DNA of 37,173 nt from Actinomycetes bacterium. GTDB lineage: Bacteria > Actinomycetota > Thermoleophilia > BMS3ABIN01. Both the position numbers and the translations under genes were made by a program. This document shows positions 2,822 to 13,955 of the stretch, one piece after another; position 1 is the first letter of the stretch; every line of letters starts with the position of its first letter. Where the stretch lies: contig JAJZQT010000005.1 of the NCBI GenBank assembly GCA_021803005.1, forward strand, positions 10,359-47,531, in the 5' to 3' direction. The notes beneath the pieces were generated by a model. The model had not been told where the DNA came from. It was given only the letters and a program-made list of their open reading frames with translations, and searched no databases.

Positions 2822-3199
2822 ATGGCAGTTGATTCACTCATAGAAGAAATCAAGAAGCTCAGCGTCACCGAGCTGGCCGAGCTGGTCCACGCTCTGGAGG
2901 ATGAGTTCGGTGTCAGCGCCGCCGCTCCCGTAGCCATGGCCGCAGCGCCTGCCGCCGGTGGTGGCGAAGCCGCCGCCGAAGAGGAGCAGACCGAGTTCGA
3001 CGTCGTGCTCGCCGCGGTCGGCGACAAGAAGATCCAGGTCATCAAGGTCGTGCGCGCCGTCACCGGCCTGGGTCTCAAGGAAGCCAAGGAGGTCGTTGAC
3101 AGCGCTCCCAAGCCTGTCAAGGAGAAGGTCTCCAAGGAAGAGGCCGAGGACATCAAGGGCAAGCTGGAAGAAGTCGGCGCCACCATCGAAGTAAAATAG
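2822..3199 (+). CDS. rplL: 50S ribosomal protein L7/L12
   Basis: This 125-residue protein has the three parts of L7/L12. The N-terminal dimerisation helices (about 1-33) bind L10. An Ala/Gly-rich hinge (about 36-58) follows. The C-terminal factor-binding domain contains K-I-Q-V-I-K-V-V-R and [12 protein letters not shown]. It recruits EF-Tu, EF-G and IF2 to the ribosome. The ATG at 2822 has a strong AGGAGG at 2812-2817, which suits the multi-copy stoichiometry of this protein. A large hairpin follows the gene. Confidence 0.98.
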
Positions 3200-3221: not shown

Positions 3222-3258
3222 GGGGCGGCGCTGCCGAAGGCAGCGCCGCCCCTGCTTT
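3222..3258 (+). terminator. Strong hairpin downstream of rplL
   Basis: GGGGCGGCGCTGCC (3222-3235) and GGCAGCGCCGCCCC (3239-3252) form a perfect 14-bp stem with a 3-base GAA loop. The tail is TGCTTTG, a weak T tract. It probably ends or strongly attenuates the rplJL transcript and separates it from the following cassette. Confidence 0.7.
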
Positions 3259-3359: not shown

Positions 3360-3481
3360 AATGCATGCCACTTCTTTGTTTTTCCGGAATAATGGGTAAT
3401 AAAGGGATTGAGCAGCAAAACGATGTATAATTTTTATTGTATGTTAAATCCTGAATGTTTCAATATTAGACGTTTGGTCTT
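3360..3481 (+). promoter_or_regulatory. AT-rich region with promoter-like -10 upstream of the cassette
   Basis: A perfect TATAAT lies at 3426-3431, 50 bases before the first cassette ATG. No good -35 sits at the usual distance. TTGAGC at 3408-3413 is too close. The stretch is much richer in A and T than its surroundings and holds no convincing gene. It is the only plausible promoter region for the accessory cassette. Confidence 0.4.
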
Positions 3482-4720
3482 ATGGCCATAAACGCCGTCG
3501 ACAATCGCGATGAGGACGAAGATTTCCCGGTCCCCGAGGGGAGAACTCCGCTTGCCAAGGTAAGGAACTATCTGGCTGACCGCCGCTCGGCCCTGGCCGA
3601 TCAGCGCACGGCCATGTCGCGTGGCCGCACCGGTCTGGCTTTCTTCCGTACGGGCATCGCGCTGGTGGCGATTGCCGTCACCCTGCTGAGGACATTCGGC
3701 TTCGGAATTTTCCTTCCCTTTGATGTGGTGCTCATTGCTGGTGGAGCCGCCGCCATCTATGACGGCCTGCGCTGGTACCTGCCCGTGCGCCGGGACGCCG
3801 CCAGGGATCTCGCCTATATCCCGCCGGCCAGGCCGCCAGGCATCTCGGTGCTGCAGACCGAAGACAAAGGCGAGACCGGCGTACCTGAATTTTTTCGCAG
3901 CACCGCTGTCGATGAAGCCGAGGCCATGCGCGGCGACTGGAGCAGCTTAAGCCCGGTCGAGCGGCGGCGATTCCTCGCCAACGACCGCACCGACCTGGCG
4001 GAGGAGCGCGCACACCTTTCCTCTCTGCGGACAACCATGGCCAAATCGCGTATGGGCCTCGCCTTCACGCGCTCAGGTGTGGCGTTCGCCGGCCTCGGCA
4101 TCGCCCTGGTCAGGAAATTTCCGGCCACAGGCTGGAACTATTTCAATTACTTTCTCATCGCCGTCGGCACATTGATGGCGCTCGAGGGTTTTTACTGGTA
4201 CCTGCCCGGCTACCGGGCCGGCCTCGAGGGCTTGGGCCGGTTCAAGCGCTCGCTGCAGGAACCGGGCATATGGGGCGAGCTGTTTCCGCCGCTCAGGACT
4301 TCCCGCAAGAGCTATCCTCCCCTGAAAGCATCGCAGGCGCCGGGCATCTGGGGGACCACCGGCCTGGCGCTGGAGCGCACGGTGCTGGCAGACCGCCGCA
4401 ACCTGATGTCGCGGCTGCGGACCGTCATGGCCCATTCGCGCACCGGCCTGGCCTTCGTGCGCACCGGCATGAGCATCTCGGCGGTGGGCGCGGGCCTGAT
4501 CGCCTTTCTCACCGTGAGCCCTGCCTGGGGAATATTTGACCTGGCGCTGATTCTGACGGGCGGTGTTCTTATAATCGACGGCCTGCGCTGGTACCGGTAT
4601 TCCGAACGAACGCGCCGGCAGTTCCCTTACTGTTACGGCGACCTCGAGATCAACATTCCGGATTACGGCATTCCCCGCAGCAGGTGGGGCAAGGTGATGT
4701 TCAGCCATGACGACCTCTAA
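3482..4720 (+). CDS. Membrane protein with three DUF202/YidH-like modules
   Basis: This 412-residue protein consists of three similar modules at about residues 29-104, 164-245 and 296-378. Each has an Arg-rich amphipathic stretch (ADRRSALADQRTAMS; ERAHLSSLRTTMA; ADRRNLMSRLRTVMA). The signature R-T-G-L-A-F-x-R-T/S-G then leads into a hydrophobic helix, followed by a second helix ending in G-L-R-W-Y or G-F-Y-W-Y. This resembles DUF202/YidH proteins (short membrane proteins, function unknown) but tripled. Six membrane helices are likely, with cytoplasmic charged linkers; P-G-I-W-G occurs twice in the second linker. The ATG at 3482 has no clear Shine-Dalgarno. The gene overlaps the next one by 14 bases. 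The family call is by motif; the function is unknown. Confidence 0.8.
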   Translation: MAINAVDNRDEDEDFPVPEGRTPLAKVRNYLADRRSALADQRTAMSRGRTGLAFFRTGIALVAIAVTLLRTFGFGIFLPFDVVLIAGGAAAIYDGLRWYLPVRRDAARDLAYIPPARPPGISVLQTEDKGETGVPEFFRSTAVDEAEAMRGDWSSLSPVERRRFLANDRTDLAEERAHLSSLRTTMAKSRMGLAFTRSGVAFAGLGIALVRKFPATGWNYFNYFLIAVGTLMALEGFYWYLPGYRAGLEGLGRFKRSLQEPGIWGELFPPLRTSRKSYPPLKASQAPGIWGTTGLALERTVLADRRNLMSRLRTVMAHSRTGLAFVRTGMSISAVGAGLIAFLTVSPAWGIFDLALILTGGVLIIDGLRWYRYSERTRRQFPYCYGDLEINIPDYGIPRSRWGKVMFSHDDL

Positions 4721-5774
4721 CCCGGCGGGCAAACACGAGGCCATGGCGGACGCGAGCGCGATCGAGTACGACGAACGGCTGCCGGTGCCGCCGCAGCTGC
4801 TCGATGGCCTCGACCCCGAAGTGCTCTCACGCGAACTGATATTTCCCGTTTTCCTGGAAGCGGGGACCGTCGTGCTGGCGGCCGCCGATCCCGGCCGGGT
4901 CCCGTCCGCGGAGATCGGCAGGATCACGCATGGGGCTCCCTATCAGCTGCGCCGGGCGGCGCCCGAGGACATCCGCTGGTTCATCGAGGATTTTATGAGC
5001 GACCGGCCCGGCAGGATTATCGGCACCGAGCGCACCGGCCTGGCATTCTGGCGCAACACCATGGCTGCCTGGCGGACCCGGATGGCGTGTTACCGCAACG
5101 ATCTGGCCAAGGCGAGGGTGTCGCTGAGTATCCTGCGCTGGGGCCTCGGGTTCATCACCGTCGCCAGCGCCTCGGCCGTGCTGGAGCTGAATCTGTCTTT
5201 GACCACATTAATGTATTGGAGTCTGTTAATCACGGGCGGGGCAGTCACCGTGCTCGGCCTCTTCCATTACCTGCGCATCCGCCGCTCGATGATGAAGGCT
5301 CCCGGGCCGCAGACGCTGGTGGAGGTGACCACCGCCACGGTGAGCTTCCTTGAGAACTACGAGCTGCAATGCACGTTCAAACCCAGGGTCAAGGGGACGA
5401 TGCTATCGCGCCTGGCTGACTTCCTGCCCAACTATTGCAGCGTGCTGAGGCCCGAGCCCGCCAGCCGCGAGCGCACCCATCTGGCCCGCGAGCGTGACAT
5501 GCTGGCGGCGCACCGGACCCTGGCAGCCTGTTACCGGACCCTTTACGCCCGCGGCCGGACCGGCCTGGCGTTTATCCGGACGGGAATCGTCTTCCTGGGA
5601 ATCGGAGCCGGACTGGTGCAGTACTTCCAGGTCAATCCGTTGGCGCTCTGGGGCTTGCTGCTGTTCGCGGCGGGCGTGCTCATGATCACCGACGGTCTGC
5701 TCTGGTATGTGCCTGCCAGGAAGGAAGAGCCGGACCTGCGGCGCCTCATGACCACCCCTGCGCGCCAGGCATGA
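4707..5774 (+). CDS. GspE/MshE N-terminal-like domain fused to two DUF202-like modules
   Basis: This is a 355-residue protein. Residues 24-97 resemble the T2SSE_N/MshEN domain of type II secretion and type IV pilus ATPases: L-P-V-P-P-Q-L-L-D-G-L-D-P-E-V-L, then V-V-L-A-A-A-D-P, then E-D-I-R-W-F-I-E. The RLG-type c-di-GMP-binding repeats of full MshEN domains are not visible, so nucleotide binding is uncertain. Two DUF202-like modules follow at about 104-193 (divergent, A-R-V-S-L-S-I-L-R-W-G-L) and 252-340 (canonical, G-R-T-G-L-A-F-I-R-T-G). About four membrane helices are predicted. The ATG at 4707 lies inside the end of the previous gene, with AAGGTG near 4691-4696, so the two are coupled. 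No secretion ATPase domain is present. The function is unknown. Confidence 0.75.
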   Translation: MTTSNPAGKHEAMADASAIEYDERLPVPPQLLDGLDPEVLSRELIFPVFLEAGTVVLAAADPGRVPSAEIGRITHGAPYQLRRAAPEDIRWFIEDFMSDRPGRIIGTERTGLAFWRNTMAAWRTRMACYRNDLAKARVSLSILRWGLGFITVASASAVLELNLSLTTLMYWSLLITGGAVTVLGLFHYLRIRRSMMKAPGPQTLVEVTTATVSFLENYELQCTFKPRVKGTMLSRLADFLPNYCSVLRPEPASRERTHLARERDMLAAHRTLAACYRTLYARGRTGLAFIRTGIVFLGIGAGLVQYFQVNPLALWGLLLFAAGVLMITDGLLWYVPARKEEPDLRRLMTTPARQA

Positions 5775-5817
5775 GTGCCAGGCATGAGGGCAATGCTGAC
5801 ATGAAACCACACCCGGC

Positions 5818-7227
5818 ATGAGAATCGAACGCAAGATAATCCTCTCCAACACCATTTACCTGGTGCTCATCCTGATCATCGGGGGCTTCGCGGTCCAGTC
5901 GCTGAACAGCGTCAGTGGCAAGCAGCGCTTCCTGGAGATTGCCGACGACCTCAACACCTCCTTCCTGACCATGAGGCTGGCCGAGAAAAACTATTTTCTT
6001 TTCAACGATAACCAGGCACTTACGGATATGCAGAGCAACATAGCCCAGACCCGCGACATCATGGACTCGGTCCGGGGCGACATCATCCCCGTCATCGGCG
6101 AGCAGAGCTACAACGATCTTAGGAACGGGCTCAATGATTACGCCGCCGCCATCGACGAGGCTGCCGCCAGCCACGCCCGCGACCAGCAGACGGCGGCCGA
6201 CATCCGTGGGAAAGGGCGAACCCTCGAGAACACCTCCAACCACATCATCCAGCTCGAGCGCTCCCGCATCAGCGACATCATTACCCGCTCAAAATGGCTG
6301 CTGTTCTCCTCGTTCTTTGCCGTGCTGGTGGCGGCTCTGATCGCCAGCCGCTCGGTTACGAAGAAGATCCTCGGCCCGATCAAGCAGATTGAGCGCCTGG
6401 CGCGGTCCATCTCCGCCGGTAACTTCAAGAAGATCGAGACGGCCAGGCCCAAGGACGAGTTCGGGCCGGTCATCGACGCCATCAACTCGATGTCGGAGGA
6501 GCTCGAGGAACGTGAGGAAGAGCTGATCCAGTCCAAGAAGCTCGCTTCTATCGGCGTGCTCGTGGCCGGCGTCGCCCACGAACTCAACAACCCCGTCAAC
6601 AACATCTCCATGATCGCGCAGACTTACGACGAAATGTATGTAAAGCTGAGCGAGGAGCAACGCATCGAATTCATGCGCAAGATCGACCAGGAATCGGAGC
6701 GGATCAAGGGGATCGTCAACAACCTGCTTGATTTTGCACGCCCCAAGGAACCCAAGCCGCGGCGGATCGATGTCAACGCGCTGCTGACCAAGGCGCTGGT
6801 GCTGGTGCAGAACACGCTCAATGTTTCCAGCATCGAGACCAATCTCGACCTGGACGATGGTTTGCCGGATATCTTTATCGATGACAACCAGGTGCAGCAG
6901 GTGTTCGTCAACCTCTTTCTGAACGCCGCCCAGGCGATGGCGCCCGGGGGACGGCTGTTCGTAAGCACCAGGCTACAGCCTGACGGGAAAATGGTGGACA
7001 TCATTATCCGGGACACCGGGAAAGGCATTCAGCCAGAGTATCTTCCCCATATCTTCGATCCGTTTTTCAGCACCAAGGAGGCGGGCGGCACCGGCCTGGG
7101 GCTCTCGGTGAGTTACAGCATCATCAAAAATCACGGGGGGAACATCCGGGCGGAGAGCCGCCCCGGAATCGGCACCACTTTCACAATCCAGATGCCAGTC
7201 AACCACATCGAGAAAGGAAGCACATGA
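5818..7227 (+). CDS. Membrane sensor histidine kinase with helical sensor and HAMP
   Basis: This 469-residue kinase has a membrane helix at about 8-28 and an extracytoplasmic all-helical sensor at 29-159. A second membrane helix at about 160-177 leads into a HAMP linker at about 178-231. The HisKA domain follows, with phospho-acceptor H254 in V-A-H-E-L-N-N-P. The HATPase domain has an N box at about 357-373 with N369, a G1 box D-T-G-K-G-I at 399-404, an F box at 411-417 and a G2 box G-T-G-L-G-L-S at 424-430. The sensor motif M-R-L-A-E-K-N-Y-F-L-F resembles 4HB/HBM-type ligand sensors of chemoreceptors. The catalytic core resembles NtrB/AtoS-type kinases. The ATG at 5818 has a weak ribosome site. 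The stop overlaps the response regulator start (ATGA), so this pair is cognate. Confidence 0.95.
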   Translation: MRIERKIILSNTIYLVLILIIGGFAVQSLNSVSGKQRFLEIADDLNTSFLTMRLAEKNYFLFNDNQALTDMQSNIAQTRDIMDSVRGDIIPVIGEQSYNDLRNGLNDYAAAIDEAAASHARDQQTAADIRGKGRTLENTSNHIIQLERSRISDIITRSKWLLFSSFFAVLVAALIASRSVTKKILGPIKQIERLARSISAGNFKKIETARPKDEFGPVIDAINSMSEELEEREEELIQSKKLASIGVLVAGVAHELNNPVNNISMIAQTYDEMYVKLSEEQRIEFMRKIDQESERIKGIVNNLLDFARPKEPKPRRIDVNALLTKALVLVQNTLNVSSIETNLDLDDGLPDIFIDDNQVQQVFVNLFLNAAQAMAPGGRLFVSTRLQPDGKMVDIIIRDTGKGIQPEYLPHIFDPFFSTKEAGGTGLGLSVSYSIIKNHGGNIRAESRPGIGTTFTIQMPVNHIEKGST

Positions 7228-7592
7228 GCGCAAGGATAATGGTCATCGATGACGAGAAAATCGTCGGCGACATGGCGAAGATATCGCTCGAGGAAGAGGG
7301 CTATGAGGTTGAGACTTTTCTCAATGCCGACCCGGCCCTCAAGCGCCTGCATGAGACCGTCTTCGACGTTGTGGTCACGGACCTGAAGATGAAAGGCATC
7401 GACGGGCTCGAGGTGCTGCGGACAGTGAAACAGACGCACCCGGACACGAAGGTGATCATGATCACCGCTTTTGCCGACCTCGACGTCGCCATCGAGGCGA
7501 TCAAGGGCGATGTCTTCGATTTCTTCCCCAAGCCGGTGAGGATCAAGGACCTCAAGGAATCCATCAGCAAAGCGCTCGCGGAAGAATCGTAA
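7224..7592 (+). CDS. Receiver-only response regulator
   Basis: This 122-residue protein is a single receiver domain with all the expected residues: acidic pair D9-D10, phospho-acceptor D53 (V-V-T-D-L-K-M), T81 and K103 (K-P). There is no DNA-binding or enzymatic output domain. It must act through protein contacts or as a relay, like CheY or Spo0F. It starts inside the kinase stop and ends directly against the GTG of the phosphotransferase gene. An effect on that enzyme is a reasonable inference but unproven. Confidence 0.96.
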   Translation: MSARIMVIDDEKIVGDMAKISLEEEGYEVETFLNADPALKRLHETVFDVVVTDLKMKGIDGLEVLRTVKQTHPDTKVIMITAFADLDVAIEAIKGDVFDFFPKPVRIKDLKESISKALAEES

Positions 7593-10130
7593 GTGACGCT
7601 GAGGCAGAAAATGTTATCCCTGGTGGGAAGGCATACCGGCCGGCGCGAGTCAGCATCGGTCGATGTCCGCTCGGCTTTTGCCGCCTACAAGAAGATCATG
7701 GACGACAACAGCCGCGCCCTGGAGATCATCACCGACATGGGCGAGACCATGAGCGGCGGCTACCTGTTCGACATCGTCTACCTGCGAAAAGCCTACTCCG
7801 ACCTGGCCGTCAGCATGCGCGTCTGCCTGAAAGATTTCAATCAGCTGACCGCGGGGCGCTACCCTGGGCTCGCAAGCGCCTTCGAAGAGATCGATGAGCG
7901 CATCGATGGCCTGGTTTCAGGCACCGTCCGGCCGCTGGAGCGGCTGACCGTTCGCCTCGGGGATATAACGCCGCCCATGGCGCGGGAAGTGGGGGGCAAA
8001 AGTTTTCATCTGGCAGAGATCAAAAACAGCCTCGGGCTCGCGGTCCCGGACGGGTTTGCGCTGACGATCTTCGCCTTCGAGGAATTCATCCGCCACAACC
8101 GGCTTGGAGAAGCCATAGCCTCGCTGGAGAGCGATGGCGATGAACCCGGGCGCCGCCGCGGGTTGCGCGAGCAGATCCTGGCCGGGGGCTTCCCGCCTTC
8201 ACTGGAAAAAGATCTTGCCGGCTCGCTGGAGTGGCTGCGGGGCCGTTGCGGTGATTGCCGCCTGGCGGTGCGAAGCAGCGCCGAGGAGGAAGACGGGATC
8301 TTTTCCTTTGCCGGGCAGTTCGAGACCGTGCTGAACGTTCCGGCCGAAGCCGGGGCTGTTGAGGATGCCTACCGGCGCGTGGTGGCCAGCCTCTTTTCCG
8401 AAGAGGCCATGGCCTACCAGCGGCGGCTGGGTTACCATCCCGGGAGCCTGAGGATGGCGGTGGGCTGTGTCGCCATGGTCGATGCCGCCGTCAGTGGCGT
8501 TGCCTACACCGCCGATCCGCTCGGCGGCGACCGCGGCGTCATGGTCATCAACTCTTCCTGGGGGTTGGGCAAATCCGTCGTCGAGGGGGCTGTGGACGCG
8601 GACCGGTTCGTTGTGGAAAAGACCCCTCCCTACCAGGTGACCGAGCGGGTACTGGGCAGAAAGGAAACCATGACGGCGCCGATGACCGAAGCCGGGGTGC
8701 AGGAGGTCGAAACCGCCGGCGACAGGCGCCATGCTTCTTCCCTGGCGCCCAAGGAACTCGAGGAGATTGTCCGCCAGGCACTGGCCATCGAGGCATACTA
8801 CAAGCGGCCGCAGGACATTGAGTGGGCCGTCGATGGGAACGGACGCGTTGTGATATTGCAGGCACGGCCGCTGAGGATGAAGGAAACAGCGCCCGCGGAA
8901 AACAAAGCTGCGGCCGCCGGGCGCCCGGTGCTCATGCGCAACAAGGGCAGCGTGGTGCAGCCGGGCGCCGTGGGTGGCAGGGTCTTTTTTGCCAGCTCGC
9001 CGGAGGCGCTCGATGAATTCCCCAGGGACGCTATTCTGGTGGCCCGTCATGATTCACCCCAGTATGTGCGGGTCATGCCCTACGCCTCGGCTATCATCAC
9101 CGATGCCGGCAACACCACCAGTCACATGGCCTCGATCAGCCGGGAGTTCCGGGTGCCCACCGTGGTCAACACCGGCGTCGCCACCAGCGTGCTGAAGCCC
9201 GGCGCCGAGATTACCCTTCAGGCCGGCGAAGACGGCGGCATGACCGTGTACGAGGGAATCGCCCGCGAGATCATCGACGAGCAGCACGACACTTTCCTCA
9301 AACTCGAAGAGCTGTACGAGTTCCGGCGCCGCAAATACGTGATGACATATATCACGCCTCTGAACCTGGTCAATCCCTTCACCGACGACTTCGCGCCTGA
9401 GAACTGCCGCACGATTCACGATATCCTGAGATTCATCCATGAAAAATCGATGCGGGAACTGATCGAGGCCTCGCGGCATACGGAACGCGGCTCCTCGCTG
9501 AAGCGCCTGGACATCCCCTTCATGGACACCATCCACGTAATCGATATCGGGGCCGGGCTCGCCGCCGGCGCCGGCGGCGTCATCACTGTCGAGCAGGTGG
9601 TCTCGGTGCCTTTCAAGGCGATCCTGGAAGGAATGTCATTCCCCGGAGCCTGGCGTAAGGGAGGGGTTCCCATCAGCCTCTCGGATTTCTTCACGGCCAG
9701 CATGCGCACCGGTTCCCTGCTTGAAGACATCGATATGAATCTGGCGGTGATTTCCCATTTCTACATGAACCTGGCTGTCCGCTTCGGTTATCACTACACC
9801 GTGGTCGACTGTTTCGCCAGCCAGAGGGCGGCCAGCAACCACATATATTTTCGCTTCCTGGGTGGCGCCGCCGACCTGTCCAAGCGGCTGCGGCGCATCG
9901 AGATGCTCGAGATAATCCTCGATCATCTGGGGTTTGCCTCCCGGGCCAAAGGCGATCTCATCACCGCCACGATCACGAATATCAGTCAGGAGGAGGCTGT
10001 TCGCATCCTCGACCAGTCGGGCCGGCTGATGGCATTCACCCGCCAGCTGGACGCCATGCTTACCAGCGACAGCGCCGTCAAGGAATATGCCCGGAAATTC
10101 ATCGAAGGCGAGTACGAGCTTTTCGGGTAA
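7593..10130 (+). CDS. PEP-synthase/PPDK-like phosphotransferase with novel C-terminal domain
   Basis: This is an 845-residue protein. Residues 1-110 are helical and unrecognised. Residues about 130-430 form the PPDK/PEP-synthase ATP-grasp domain, with V-G-G-K136-S-F-H-L-A-E, R227-S-S-A-E-E-E-D-G, Q407-D-I-E-W-A and Q423-A-R-P. Residues about 445-565 form the swivelling phospho-histidine domain, with T-D-A-G-N-T-T-S-H511-M-A; H511 is the expected phosphorylated residue and the second Gly of the usual G-G is Asn. The last roughly 280 residues do not resemble the PEP/pyruvate TIM barrel. The enzyme should move phosphate from ATP to H511, but the final acceptor is unknown. The GTG at 7593 abuts the regulator stop, with GGAAG near 7579. 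Rifamycin phosphotransferase has a different domain order. The PEP-synthase label would be misleading. Confidence 0.88.
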   Translation: MTLRQKMLSLVGRHTGRRESASVDVRSAFAAYKKIMDDNSRALEIITDMGETMSGGYLFDIVYLRKAYSDLAVSMRVCLKDFNQLTAGRYPGLASAFEEIDERIDGLVSGTVRPLERLTVRLGDITPPMAREVGGKSFHLAEIKNSLGLAVPDGFALTIFAFEEFIRHNRLGEAIASLESDGDEPGRRRGLREQILAGGFPPSLEKDLAGSLEWLRGRCGDCRLAVRSSAEEEDGIFSFAGQFETVLNVPAEAGAVEDAYRRVVASLFSEEAMAYQRRLGYHPGSLRMAVGCVAMVDAAVSGVAYTADPLGGDRGVMVINSSWGLGKSVVEGAVDADRFVVEKTPPYQVTERVLGRKETMTAPMTEAGVQEVETAGDRRHASSLAPKELEEIVRQALAIEAYYKRPQDIEWAVDGNGRVVILQARPLRMKETAPAENKAAAAGRPVLMRNKGSVVQPGAVGGRVFFASSPEALDEFPRDAILVARHDSPQYVRVMPYASAIITDAGNTTSHMASISREFRVPTVVNTGVATSVLKPGAEITLQAGEDGGMTVYEGIAREIIDEQHDTFLKLEELYEFRRRKYVMTYITPLNLVNPFTDDFAPENCRTIHDILRFIHEKSMRELIEASRHTERGSSLKRLDIPFMDTIHVIDIGAGLAAGAGGVITVEQVVSVPFKAILEGMSFPGAWRKGGVPISLSDFFTASMRTGSLLEDIDMNLAVISHFYMNLAVRFGYHYTVVDCFASQRAASNHIYFRFLGGAADLSKRLRRIEMLEIILDHLGFASRAKGDLITATITNISQEEAVRILDQSGRLMAFTRQLDAMLTSDSAVKEYARKFIEGEYELFG

Positions 10131-10260: not shown

Positions 10261-10289
10261 TTGCTTCCGAAAACCAGTTATGTTATATT
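10261..10289 (+). promoter_or_regulatory. Candidate sigma-70-type promoter for rpoBC
   Basis: TTGCTT (10261-10266) and TATATT (10284-10289) are 17 bases apart, the ideal spacing. Transcription would start near 10296 and give a leader of about 50-60 bases. An own promoter fits the separation of rpoBC from rplJL by the cassette. Confidence 0.55.
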
Positions 10290-10346
10290 TCCTTGTTCGT
10301 GCCTCAGCACGGTCCTATTACCCTGCAATAATCCCATCCGCGAGGG

Positions 10347-13300
10347 GTGAGCCTTTTGGAGCAACTGTCTGACTACGCTGTAAGTCCCCGCCAACGGAGA
10401 TCCTTCTCCAAACTCGAAAAGATTTTAGAGGTCCCCAACCTCATCGATATTCAGAAAAGTTCCTACGAGTGGTTCCTTGATGAAGGTGTGCGCGAGACCA
10501 TCGCCGACATCTCACCGATTGAGGACTATACCGGCACGCTGGCCGTCGAGTTCGGCGAGCATCATTTCGAGCCGCCGACCAGCAGCATCGAGGAGTGCCG
10601 CGACAAGGACGGCAACTACTCGGCTCCGCTGTTCATGACCGTGCGGTTTATCAACAAGGAGACCGGCGAGATCCGTGAGCAGTCAGTGTTCATGGGCGAC
10701 TTCCCCATGATGACCGAGTGGGGAACCTTCATCATCAACGGCACCGAGCGTGTCGTCGTCACCCAGCTGGTCCGTTCCCCGGGCGCCTACGTCATGGAGC
10801 CCAAGGACCCGGCCAAGCAGATGTTCATCGCCAACCTCATGCCATCCCGCGGGTCCTGGCTGGAGCTCGAGATCGACAAGAAGGGCGTCGTCAACGTCCG
10901 CATCGACCGCAAGCGCAAGCTGCCGGTGACGGTGCTGCTGCGCGCGCTGGGTTACGGCAACGATGACGACATCCGCAAGCTTTTCAGCCTGGAGAAAAAG
11001 ACCAGGAAAAAGGAAGGCAGGGAAGAGACGGAATGGATCTGGGGCAAGGGCAAGAATTCCATCTATATAGACAAGACCCTGGACAAGGACACGACTGAAA
11101 GCCAGGAAGCGGCGATGGTCGAGCTCTTCAAGAAGCAGCGCCCGGGCGAGCCGCCCAGCCTGGAGAGCTCCAAGTCGCTGATCAAGGCGCTGTTCTTCGA
11201 TCCCAAGCGCTACGACCTCACCAAAGTCGGCCGCTACAAGCTCAACACGCGCCTGAACTTGAACGTCAAGCCGGACGTGCGCACGCTGACCAACGACGAT
11301 ATCCTCGAGCTGATCCGCGCTCTGATCATCCTGCCGGAGAAGCTGGAGATCCCCGAGGACACGGTCGATTTCGCGGCCGAGGCCAAGGGAATGCCCCGCG
11401 AGGAGATCACCCACGACCTCGACGAGTACGAGCATTTCGGCAACCGCCGGCTGCGCACCGTCGGCGAGCTGGTGCAGGAAGCTTTCCGCATCGGCCTCTA
11501 CCGCATGGAGCGCGTGGTCAAGGAGCGCATGACTACCGAGGACGTGGACGCTATCACGCCTCAGCATATTATCAATATACGGCCCGTGGTTGCGGCGCTC
11601 AAGGAGTTTTTTGGCTCCTCACAGCTGTCGCAGTTCCTGGACCAGACCAATACCCTGGCCGCCCTGACGCATCGCCGCCGCTTAAGCGCCCTGGGCGCCG
11701 GCGGCCTGACGCGTGAGCGGGCCCCGATCGAAGTCCGCGACGTGCATCCGACCCACTATGGCCGCATGTGCCCGATCGAGACTCCTGAAGGCCCGAACAT
11801 CGGCCTCATCGGCTCACTCTCGTCCTTTGCCACGGTAAATGAGTTCGGTTTCATCCAGACTCCTTACCGCAAGGTGGAGAAGGGCAAGGTAACCACCGAG
11901 ATCGTTTACCTGGACGCCAGCGAGGAAGACAAGTACGTCATCGCCCAGGCCAACGCCGAGTTCAATCCCAAGACCGGCAAGTTCCCGGACAACATGAACG
12001 TGCTGGCCCGTACCCGCGACGGCGAGGTAGTTACTGTCAAGCCCAAGGAAGTCGACTTCATGGACGTCTCGCCGCAGCAGATCGTTTCGGTGGCGACGGC
12101 ACTGGTTCCCTTCCTCGAGCATAACGACGCCAACCGCGCCCTCATGGGCTCGAACATGCAGCGCCAGGCGGTACCGCTACTGGTGTCACAAGCGCCGCTG
12201 ATCGGCACCGGCATCGAGTTCCGCGCCGCCATCGACACCGGCGACGTCATCCTGGCCAAGAACTCCGGTAAGATCAAGGAAGTCGACGCCGAGCACATCA
12301 TCATCGAGACCAGCAAGGGCGAGGATGTTTACGTGCTCAAAAAGTTCACCCGTTCCAACCAGGGTACGCTGATGCACCAGAAGCCGCTGCTGGTCGAGGG
12401 TGACCGCGTCAAGAAGGGCGCGGTGCTGGCCGACGGCGCCTCCACCGACATGGGGGAGATGGCGCTGGGCAAGAACCTGCTGGTCGCCTTCATGAGCTGG
12501 GAAGGTTACAACTTCGAGGATGCCATCATCCTCAGCGAGCGCCTGGTCAAGGACGACGTGCTCTCTTCCATCCATATCGAGGAATACGAGGTCGAGGCCC
12601 GCTCCACCAAGCTGGGCGACGAGGAGATCACCCGTGATATCCCCAACCGCAGCGAAGAGTCGCTGGCCGACCTCGATGAAGACGGCATCATCCGTATCGG
12701 CGCCGAGGTTAACGCCGGCGATCTGCTGGTGGGCAAGGTCACGCCCAAGGGCGAGACCGAGCTGACCGCCGAGGAAAAGCTGATCCGCGCCATCTTCAAG
12801 GAGAAGGCCCGCGAAGTGCGCGACACTTCGCTCAAGGTCCCCCACGGCGAAGGCGGCCGCATCATCGACGTCAAGATATTCTCCCGCGACAACGGCGACG
12901 ACCTCGCCCCGGGAGTCAACAAGCTGGTCCGTGTCTACGTGGCCAAGAAGCGCAAGATCGCCGAGGGCGACAAGCTGGCTGGCCGCCACGGCAACAAGGG
13001 CGTCATCTCCAAGATCGTCCCCGAGGAGGACATGCCCTTCCTCGAGGACGGCACGCCCGTGGACATCATCCTCAATCCCCTGGGCGTACCTTCCCGGATG
13101 AACATCGGGCAGATCCTGGAGACGCACCTGGGCTGGGCCGCTTCGCGCGGCTGGGATGACGGCAACGGTTTCCGGGCGCCGGTTCACGTGGCGACGCCGG
13201 TATTCGACGGCGCCAGCCTCGGCGAGATCGAGGAAGCGCTGATCAAGTGCTACGATCACGACCCGGAGAAGAAGATCACTTATTCCTACAACAACGATGA

Positions 13301-13955
13301 GCCCAACCCGGCCGCCGGCAAGGTGAAGCTGTTCAACGGCCTCACCGGCGAGCCTTACGGCGACAAGATCACCGTGGGCTACATGTATATCCTCAAACTC
13401 CTGCACCTGGTGGACGACAAGATCCACGCGCGTTCCACCGGACCCTACTCGCTGGTGACGCAGCAGCCACTGGGCGGCAAGGCCCAGTTCGGCGGGCAGC
13501 GATTCGGCGAGATGGAGGTCTGGGCGCTGGAGGCTTACGGCGCCGCCCATACGCTGCAGGAGATGCTGACGATCAAGTCCGATGACACCATCGGCCGCGT
13601 CAAGGCCTACGAGGCGATCGTCAAGGGCGAGAACATCCCCGAGCCGAACATCCCCGAGTCGTTCAAGGTGCTGCTGAAGGAGATGCAGAGCCTGGGGCTC
13701 GACGTCGGCATCGAGACCGAGGCCGGCGAGAGCGTCGAGATGATCGAGGAAGACGACGAACTCCGCCGCGCCGCCGAGGAGCTTGGCATCGATCTGTCAC
13801 AGGGCCTGAAGAAGAAGGAAGGCCCGGGCGTGGAGGGAGAGGAAGCAGCCGAGCTGCTTGCGGCCGACCAGGAGCTCTCGGTGGAAGAGGGAGCCGAAGA
13901 GGAAGAGGAAGAGGAAGCGGAAACAGAAGCAGAGGCGGAGGTCGAGGTAGAATGA
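10347..13955 (+). CDS. rpoB: DNA-directed RNA polymerase subunit beta
   Basis: This is full-length RpoB, 1202 residues from GTG 10347. GAGGGGTGA (10342-10350) is better placed for TTG at 10356, which gives 1199 residues and is likely the true start. The rifamycin pocket runs from S424 to L454. It keeps the equivalents of E. coli D516 (D432), H526 (H442) and S531 (S447). It has Thr at the usual Pro520 (T436) and Ala at Pro535 (A451). The catalytic-centre blocks [16 protein letters not shown] and G-R-H-G-N-K-G are intact. No large lineage insertions are seen. The last roughly 55 residues form a very acidic Glu/Ala tail. RpoC follows after 82 bases. Confidence 0.98.

Follow-up and report, generated by a model that had tools for sequence, protein, structure and literature searches.

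An arginine-ladder DUF202 gene cassette with a two-component pair and an ATP-using phosphotransferase, conserved in two bacterial phyla

Five open reading frames lie between rplL and rpoB, all on the (+) strand, in a 37,173-nucleotide stretch of DNA (the window) from an Actinomycetes bacterium of the class Thermoleophilia (assembly GCA_021803005.1, contig JAJZQT010000005.1). We designate them A to E (Table 1). A and B are DUF202-type membrane proteins, C and D a histidine kinase and a receiver, and E an ATP-using phosphotransferase related to phosphoenolpyruvate (PEP) synthase and pyruvate phosphate dikinase (PPDK). The five families are genuinely conserved together as a unit and apparently make up an undescribed system, of which the most unusual element is the family of DUF202 proteins bearing ladders of arginine. 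The cassette probably governs how a negatively charged substance is moved or bound. On the grounds of sequence and analogy we read it as a horizontally acquired device in which a two-component pair controls an arginine-lined path or binding site for anions, together with an ATP-using partner, and we give this reading a probability of about 0.45.

How general is the cassette? The order A-B-C-D-E is found in the source genome (G000), in two further genomes of its genus (G002 and G003), in another genus of the same family (G011) and in the Desulfobacterota G305, G306 and G567. An earlier note on this DNA had proposed co-occurrence away from rplL and rpoB as the check on a system, and the order is indeed kept outside that junction in G003, G011 and the three Desulfobacterota, and in G012 across a contig break. 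Scanning the GTDB genome collection with the C-terminal domain of E gave 286 relatives, and most of the best 80 of the 286 belong to the Desulfobacterota. Among 299 genomes of the class to which the source genome belongs, 11 have the domain and 12 have A, every one a member of the family of G000; this confinement is in keeping with acquisition from elsewhere. When 170 E sequences are placed in one tree, those adjoining A-B-C-D, from both phyla, fall into a single clade (support 1.0), and in the tree of A the Actinomycetota family forms one group (support 1.0). Full-length A is present in 7 genomes of a Desulfobacterota sample of 297; E is found in 7/7 of these compared with 107/297 overall (hypergeometric P = 7e-4, with relatedness not corrected). 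The distribution fits a self-contained, horizontally acquired cassette that is common to distant bacteria.

The block is modular. A-B-C-D is the tightest part across the phyla, and E may sit elsewhere. In G306 the cluster reads sigma54 regulator, a gene in the position of a universal stress protein (USP), TauE, a small membrane protein, E1, D, kinase, E2, E3, A, B, C, D and E4; the right half is the same in G567, and the G305 cluster is shorter and closes with A-B-C-D-E. C and E are jointly present or jointly absent in the Actinomycetota family; genus g3 has A-B with neither C nor E, and an adjacent D in three of its six genomes. In the window the genes are as tightly packed as the earlier note described, with 14 bases common to A and B (4707-4720), an ATGA common to C and D (7224-7227) and the TAA of D abutting the GTG of E at 7592/7593. 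Its suggestion that at least the last three genes act together calls for some revision, given the tighter A-B-C-D block, the less fixed place of E and the g3 arrangement.

The arginine ladders of A and B, a feature missing from the earlier note, are strikingly regular. A matches DUF202 (PF02656) in three stretches of a Pfam scan, with 47.9 bits against a gathering cut-off of 23.4. B reaches 21.9 bits, just below the cut-off, in one stretch, and its second module is recognized through homology and the arginine pattern. Each of the five modules opens with a helix in which an arginine recurs every seven residues, giving five or six arginines per module. All 29 of the 29 ladder arginines are invariant across the two phyla (16 sequences of A and 15 of B), and no ladder of at least four arginines at spacings of 3-6 or 8-11 residues was found in A or B. 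Overall, A contains 45 arginines and 8 lysines. In a model of A (predicted local distance difference test, pLDDT, 72; predicted template modelling score, pTM, 0.71) three continuous helices of 50-55 residues span the ladders, each followed by a second helix. Comparison of this fold with the PDB gave no significant match, and the matches listed were mainly long-helix ABC exporters.

B also has an MshEN-type sequence, otherwise known from the N-terminal domain of the type IV pilus ATPases PilF and PilB. The match covers positions 9-87 of the 90 in the profile and starts past the region where the c-di-GMP-binding motif of the N-terminal half-domain usually lies. In contrast to the pilus proteins, the domain is here joined to membrane modules without an ATPase; it is also present in A of relatives, whereas A of the window has lost it. 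In genera g3 and g7 A is preceded by a protein of 174-178 residues without a Pfam family (L047:6243-6767 and L048:4610-5146).

C has the HisKA and HATPase domains, and D the conserved Asp, Thr and Lys, of a two-component pair. The sequences bear out the earlier note in showing a kinase and receiver accompanied by an ATP-phosphotransferase. The same pair accompanies much longer ladders. Searching Desulfobacterota with A retrieved single-anchor DUF202 proteins with 38 (L233:3287-4393), 29 (L234:2394-3347) and 22 (L235:3257-4069) consecutive heptad arginines, and in each of these loci orthologues of C (38-42%) and D (56-58%) come after the long-ladder protein. At L237:4726-5778 one polypeptide joins a DUF202 protein with a ladder of 12 arginines to a D-type receiver, and E is the gene that comes next; D is therefore directly linked to a membrane protein. 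Because of this fusion and of the gene order in the other three loci, the membrane protein is the candidate target of D.

E has the ATP-binding and swivelling His domains and the conserved residues of PEP synthase, PPDK and rifampicin phosphotransferase (PDB 2ols, 8a8e and 5hv1). Six residues, K136, R227, E410, Q423, R425 and H511, line up with their counterparts in PEP synthases and do not vary within the family, so that E likely makes a phosphohistidine from ATP. The third, substrate-binding domain of those enzymes is replaced by one without a significant PDB relative. A Pfam scan found no family for the last ~290 residues of E and no PEP/pyruvate-binding domain, so that the description 'PPDK-like' holds for the PPDK_N and His domains and fails for the rest. 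Against the curated PEP synthase and PPDK scores E attains 300.8 bits versus 598 and 289 versus 740. We rejected the idea that E is an ordinary PEP synthase: it is without the third domain, and elsewhere in the genome another gene (C83, 766 residues) encodes a homologue of its ATP and His domains. The acceptor-type domain of E contains the motif CxxxHDxxRxxHE, with C-H-D-R-H-E invariant within 13 residues, plus further invariant H, D, N and R, and this cluster looks catalytic. An AlphaFold2 model of the domain (pLDDT 79, pTM 0.69) had no PDB match below E = 0.01; the weak fold matches (2plg, 4h5b and arginine-kinase fragments), none of which passed this threshold, were not trusted.

What might the substance be? 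A TauE-type exporter lies directly 5′ of E in 56 of the 61 loci with enough upstream sequence. There is no TauE permease among the five genes of the cassette; it is found 5′ of the related E1 copies. The closest described likeness is the Desulfovibrio nitrate cluster DVU0251-DVU0245/Dde_0597-0605 (Korte 2014, PMC4001038), in which, as in the cassette, a histidine kinase, a lone receiver and a PPDK-like enzyme neighbour a membrane transport component. It differs in that the membrane part is TauE and not an arginine-ladder DUF202 protein, and in the presence of a PtxB-like protein and a dual-specificity phosphatase. Insertions in TauE (DVU0251), the lone receiver (DVU0247) and the PPDK-like enzyme (DVU0246) of Desulfovibrio vulgaris each allow normal growth in 100 mM nitrate; the authors proposed a leaky thiosulfate transporter (PMC4001038). 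TauE-kinase-receiver-E clusters with full-length relatives of E in L191, L193 and L194 (Halodesulfovibrio and others) resemble this cluster. A further D. vulgaris cluster, DVU0539-0545, comprises a transporter, a DNA-binding regulator, a kinase and USPs, is without an E gene, and responds to molybdate (PMC10102598). Taken together by analogy, the TauE neighbours, the nitrate phenotype and the molybdate response point to the handling of oxyanions. Our literature search found nothing joining DUF202 with PEP synthase and a two-component pair, nor TauE with a USP and PEP synthase. In a separate setting (L041:4895-11586, G004:C5) a divergent E with a TauE-type neighbour adjoins RACo, CooC-like and FolD-like genes, which hints at carbon-fixation clusters.

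From the domain assignments, key residues, co-occurrence and L237 fusion, all read from the sequences, we infer how an anion device could be assembled and gated and what its cargo and acceptor might do. Together A and B would build a pseudo-pentamer, with the five ladder helices lining a path or a cradle for anions or polyanions. C would detect a signal at the membrane and phosphorylate D, and D-phosphate would work directly on the A/B assembly. Using ATP via His511, E would phosphorylate an acceptor bound at its C-terminal domain; this acceptor would be either what the device carries or a regulator of it. The model for the assembly is the yeast VTC complex, a 3:1:1 pentamer in which five first transmembrane (TM1) helices form a channel lined by K24 and R31 of Vtc1, seven residues apart (PMC9911596). 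VTC has five DUF202-type modules per complex, and A and B encode three plus two, again with basic residues seven apart on the putative channel helix; the cassette modules differ in being fused in tandem and in their longer ladders. The analogy is suggestive, and no fold or profile search backs the likeness to VTC.

Several points weigh against the reading as an anion path or binding device. The pentamer comes from module arithmetic and analogy, with A modelled on its own. Each cassette module has two membrane helices, compared with three per VTC subunit. VTC was absent among the matches listed for the model of A, and the sequence profiles of A and B retrieved no VTC chains. E is not obligatory, as the g3 genomes demonstrate. 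That DVU0246 is an E-family enzyme is suggested by the look-alike clusters in L191, L193 and L194, and the E copies of those clusters belong to a different clade from the cassette E. A more elaborate version, in which the ladders make up a conduit or rod that is gated by phosphorylation and serves a polyanion made or loaded by the PEP synthase-like enzyme, in hosts without the usual polyphosphate kinases and with ladder length (five or six arginines per module here, up to 38 consecutive ones in relatives) setting the capacity, strikes us as quite unlikely.

The cassette might instead be a pure signalling relay, in which C and D control E, or a protein or D itself receives phosphate from E; A and B would serve as sensors or scaffolds, with partners or lipids gripped by their arginine-rich coiled coils, and nothing would be transported. 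D comes after the first E in 63 of 75 loci, the N-terminal region of E could dock a partner, and ladders of up to 38 heptads resemble rigid coiled-coil rods. Against such a relay stand the TauE gene so often found beside E and the common nitrate phenotype of the TauE, receiver and PPDK-like mutants in Desulfovibrio (PMC4001038), and the 29 strictly invariant arginines, with so few lysines, speak for a chemical role. We consider it unlikely, though a serious contender.

The VTC analogy also raises polyphosphate, with E as an unconventional polyphosphate-making enzyme and A and B as a channel for export or storage. Five DUF202-type modules with channel-type basic residues would suit such a machine, as would a phosphohistidine on E, expected by homology. 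Against it, domain scans of the five cassette proteins found neither a TTM polymerase nor an SPX domain, the characterized relatives of E pass phosphate to other acceptors, and E relatives sit with TauE. We looked for polyphosphate kinases in 16 genomes (G000, G002, G003, G305-G307 and others), 15 of which carry A or ladder-DUF202 genes. PPK1 exceeded the cut-off in 0/16 and PPK2 in 1/16, marginally, and polyphosphate made by the canonical enzymes was rejected on this basis. Their near-absence cuts both ways: it leaves room for another polymerase, and it equally suggests that little polyphosphate is made. Polyphosphate is a possible cargo, but a polyphosphate machine of this kind is improbable. 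It is a shade less probable still that the ladders bind nucleic acid or the ribosome and have nothing to do with transport. Arginine-rich repeats do bind RNA and DNA in other proteins, but here every ladder continues directly into a membrane helix as part of a repeated module, and the partner genes are those of membrane signalling and TauE-type transport.

The position of the cassette beside the RNA polymerase genes is incidental. The earlier note placed the five genes between rplL and rpoB, and the same order, rplL-A-B-C-D-E-rpoB, in a second species, G002 (rpoB 97.9% and E 83% identical to G000), confirms this and excludes an assembly artefact; the contig that contains the window is 47.5 kb long, in an assembly of 1.77 Mb. 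In G003 and G011 the cassette is located elsewhere, with rplL and rpoB on other contigs, and parts of it in G014 and G012 are on contigs without rplL or rpoB. The rplL-rpoB interval is readable in 14 genomes of the family. In seven it is 0.16-0.32 kb long, in G000 and G002 it is the cassette, and in five others it holds unrelated cargo: a group II intron reverse transcriptase/maturase gene with an RDD-like protein in G003 (L050, G003:C248), a HisKA_3 kinase with a LuxR-type regulator in G004, beta-helix and TMEM260-like proteins in G015, one beta-helix protein in G008 and a protein without a family in G013. A GC-rich hairpin similar to that of the window follows rplL in most readable relatives, and TTGnTT-N17-TATATT stands just 5′ of rpoB in 16 of the 16 family genomes in which the sequence ahead of rpoB can be read. 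In place of the attenuator expected here, the family seems to have a terminator and an rpoB promoter, which suits a boundary between operons better than attenuated read-through. Given the hairpin, promoter and varied cargo, the simplest view of the junction is an operon boundary where insertions are tolerated, for which no functional link to rpoBC is needed. The rpoB leader (10290-10346) has a short inverted repeat of the CGTGCC...GGCACG type that is conserved in the family.

A tie to growth through co-location with rpoBC, as the earlier note had supposed from a location now seen in two species, is very improbable, contradicted by the cassette's other locations in G003 and G011, by the unrelated or absent cargo at the junction elsewhere and by the retained rpoB promoter. 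Least credible of all is a chance gathering of unrelated genes at a permissive site, which the variability of the junction would allow but which the same order in another phylum, the dedicated E subclade and the co-occurrence contradict.

Table 1. The cassette genes and flanking features, in coordinates of the window
Feature	Coordinates	Strand	Description
Gene A	3482..4720	+	412 aa (amino acids); three DUF202-type two-helix membrane modules; heptad arginine ladders R21-56, R162-197, R299-327
Gene B	4707..5774	+	355 aa; partial MshEN domain (23-100); two DUF202-type modules; ladders R109-144, R256-291
Gene C	5818..7227	+	469 aa membrane sensor histidine kinase; two transmembrane helices flank a periplasmic region; HAMP, HisKA (His254), HATPase
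Gene D	7224..7592	+	122 aa receiver-only response regulator; D9, D10, D53, T81, K103 present
Gene E	7593..10130	+	845 aa; N-terminal region (1-120), PPDK_N ATP-binding (132-439), swivelling His domain (His511), acceptor-type C-terminal domain (~556-845)
rplL	2822..3199	+	Left neighbour, outside the cassette; 97.6% identity in G002
GC-rich hairpin	3222..3252	+	Perfect hairpin in the sequence; likely terminator of the L10/L12 operon, a putative role, with no strong T run
TATAAT	3426..3431	+	Possible -10 of the cassette's own promoter; common to G002; no good -35; putative
rpoB promoter	10261..10289	+	TTGCTT-N17-TATATT, rpoB's own; right boundary; motif match across the family
rpoB	10347..13955	+	GTG start; right neighbour, outside the cassette; 97.9% identity in G002

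Bacterial DUF202 proteins are common, and in the literature searched no title dealt with the function of a bacterial DUF202 system. The cassette connects them with a specific kinase, receiver and ATP-phosphotransferase, and makes a sharp structural prediction, that of five helices lined by arginines every seven residues. It also offers a way to approach the nitrate-resistance genes of sulfate reducers, so far unexplained and relevant to the souring of oil wells.

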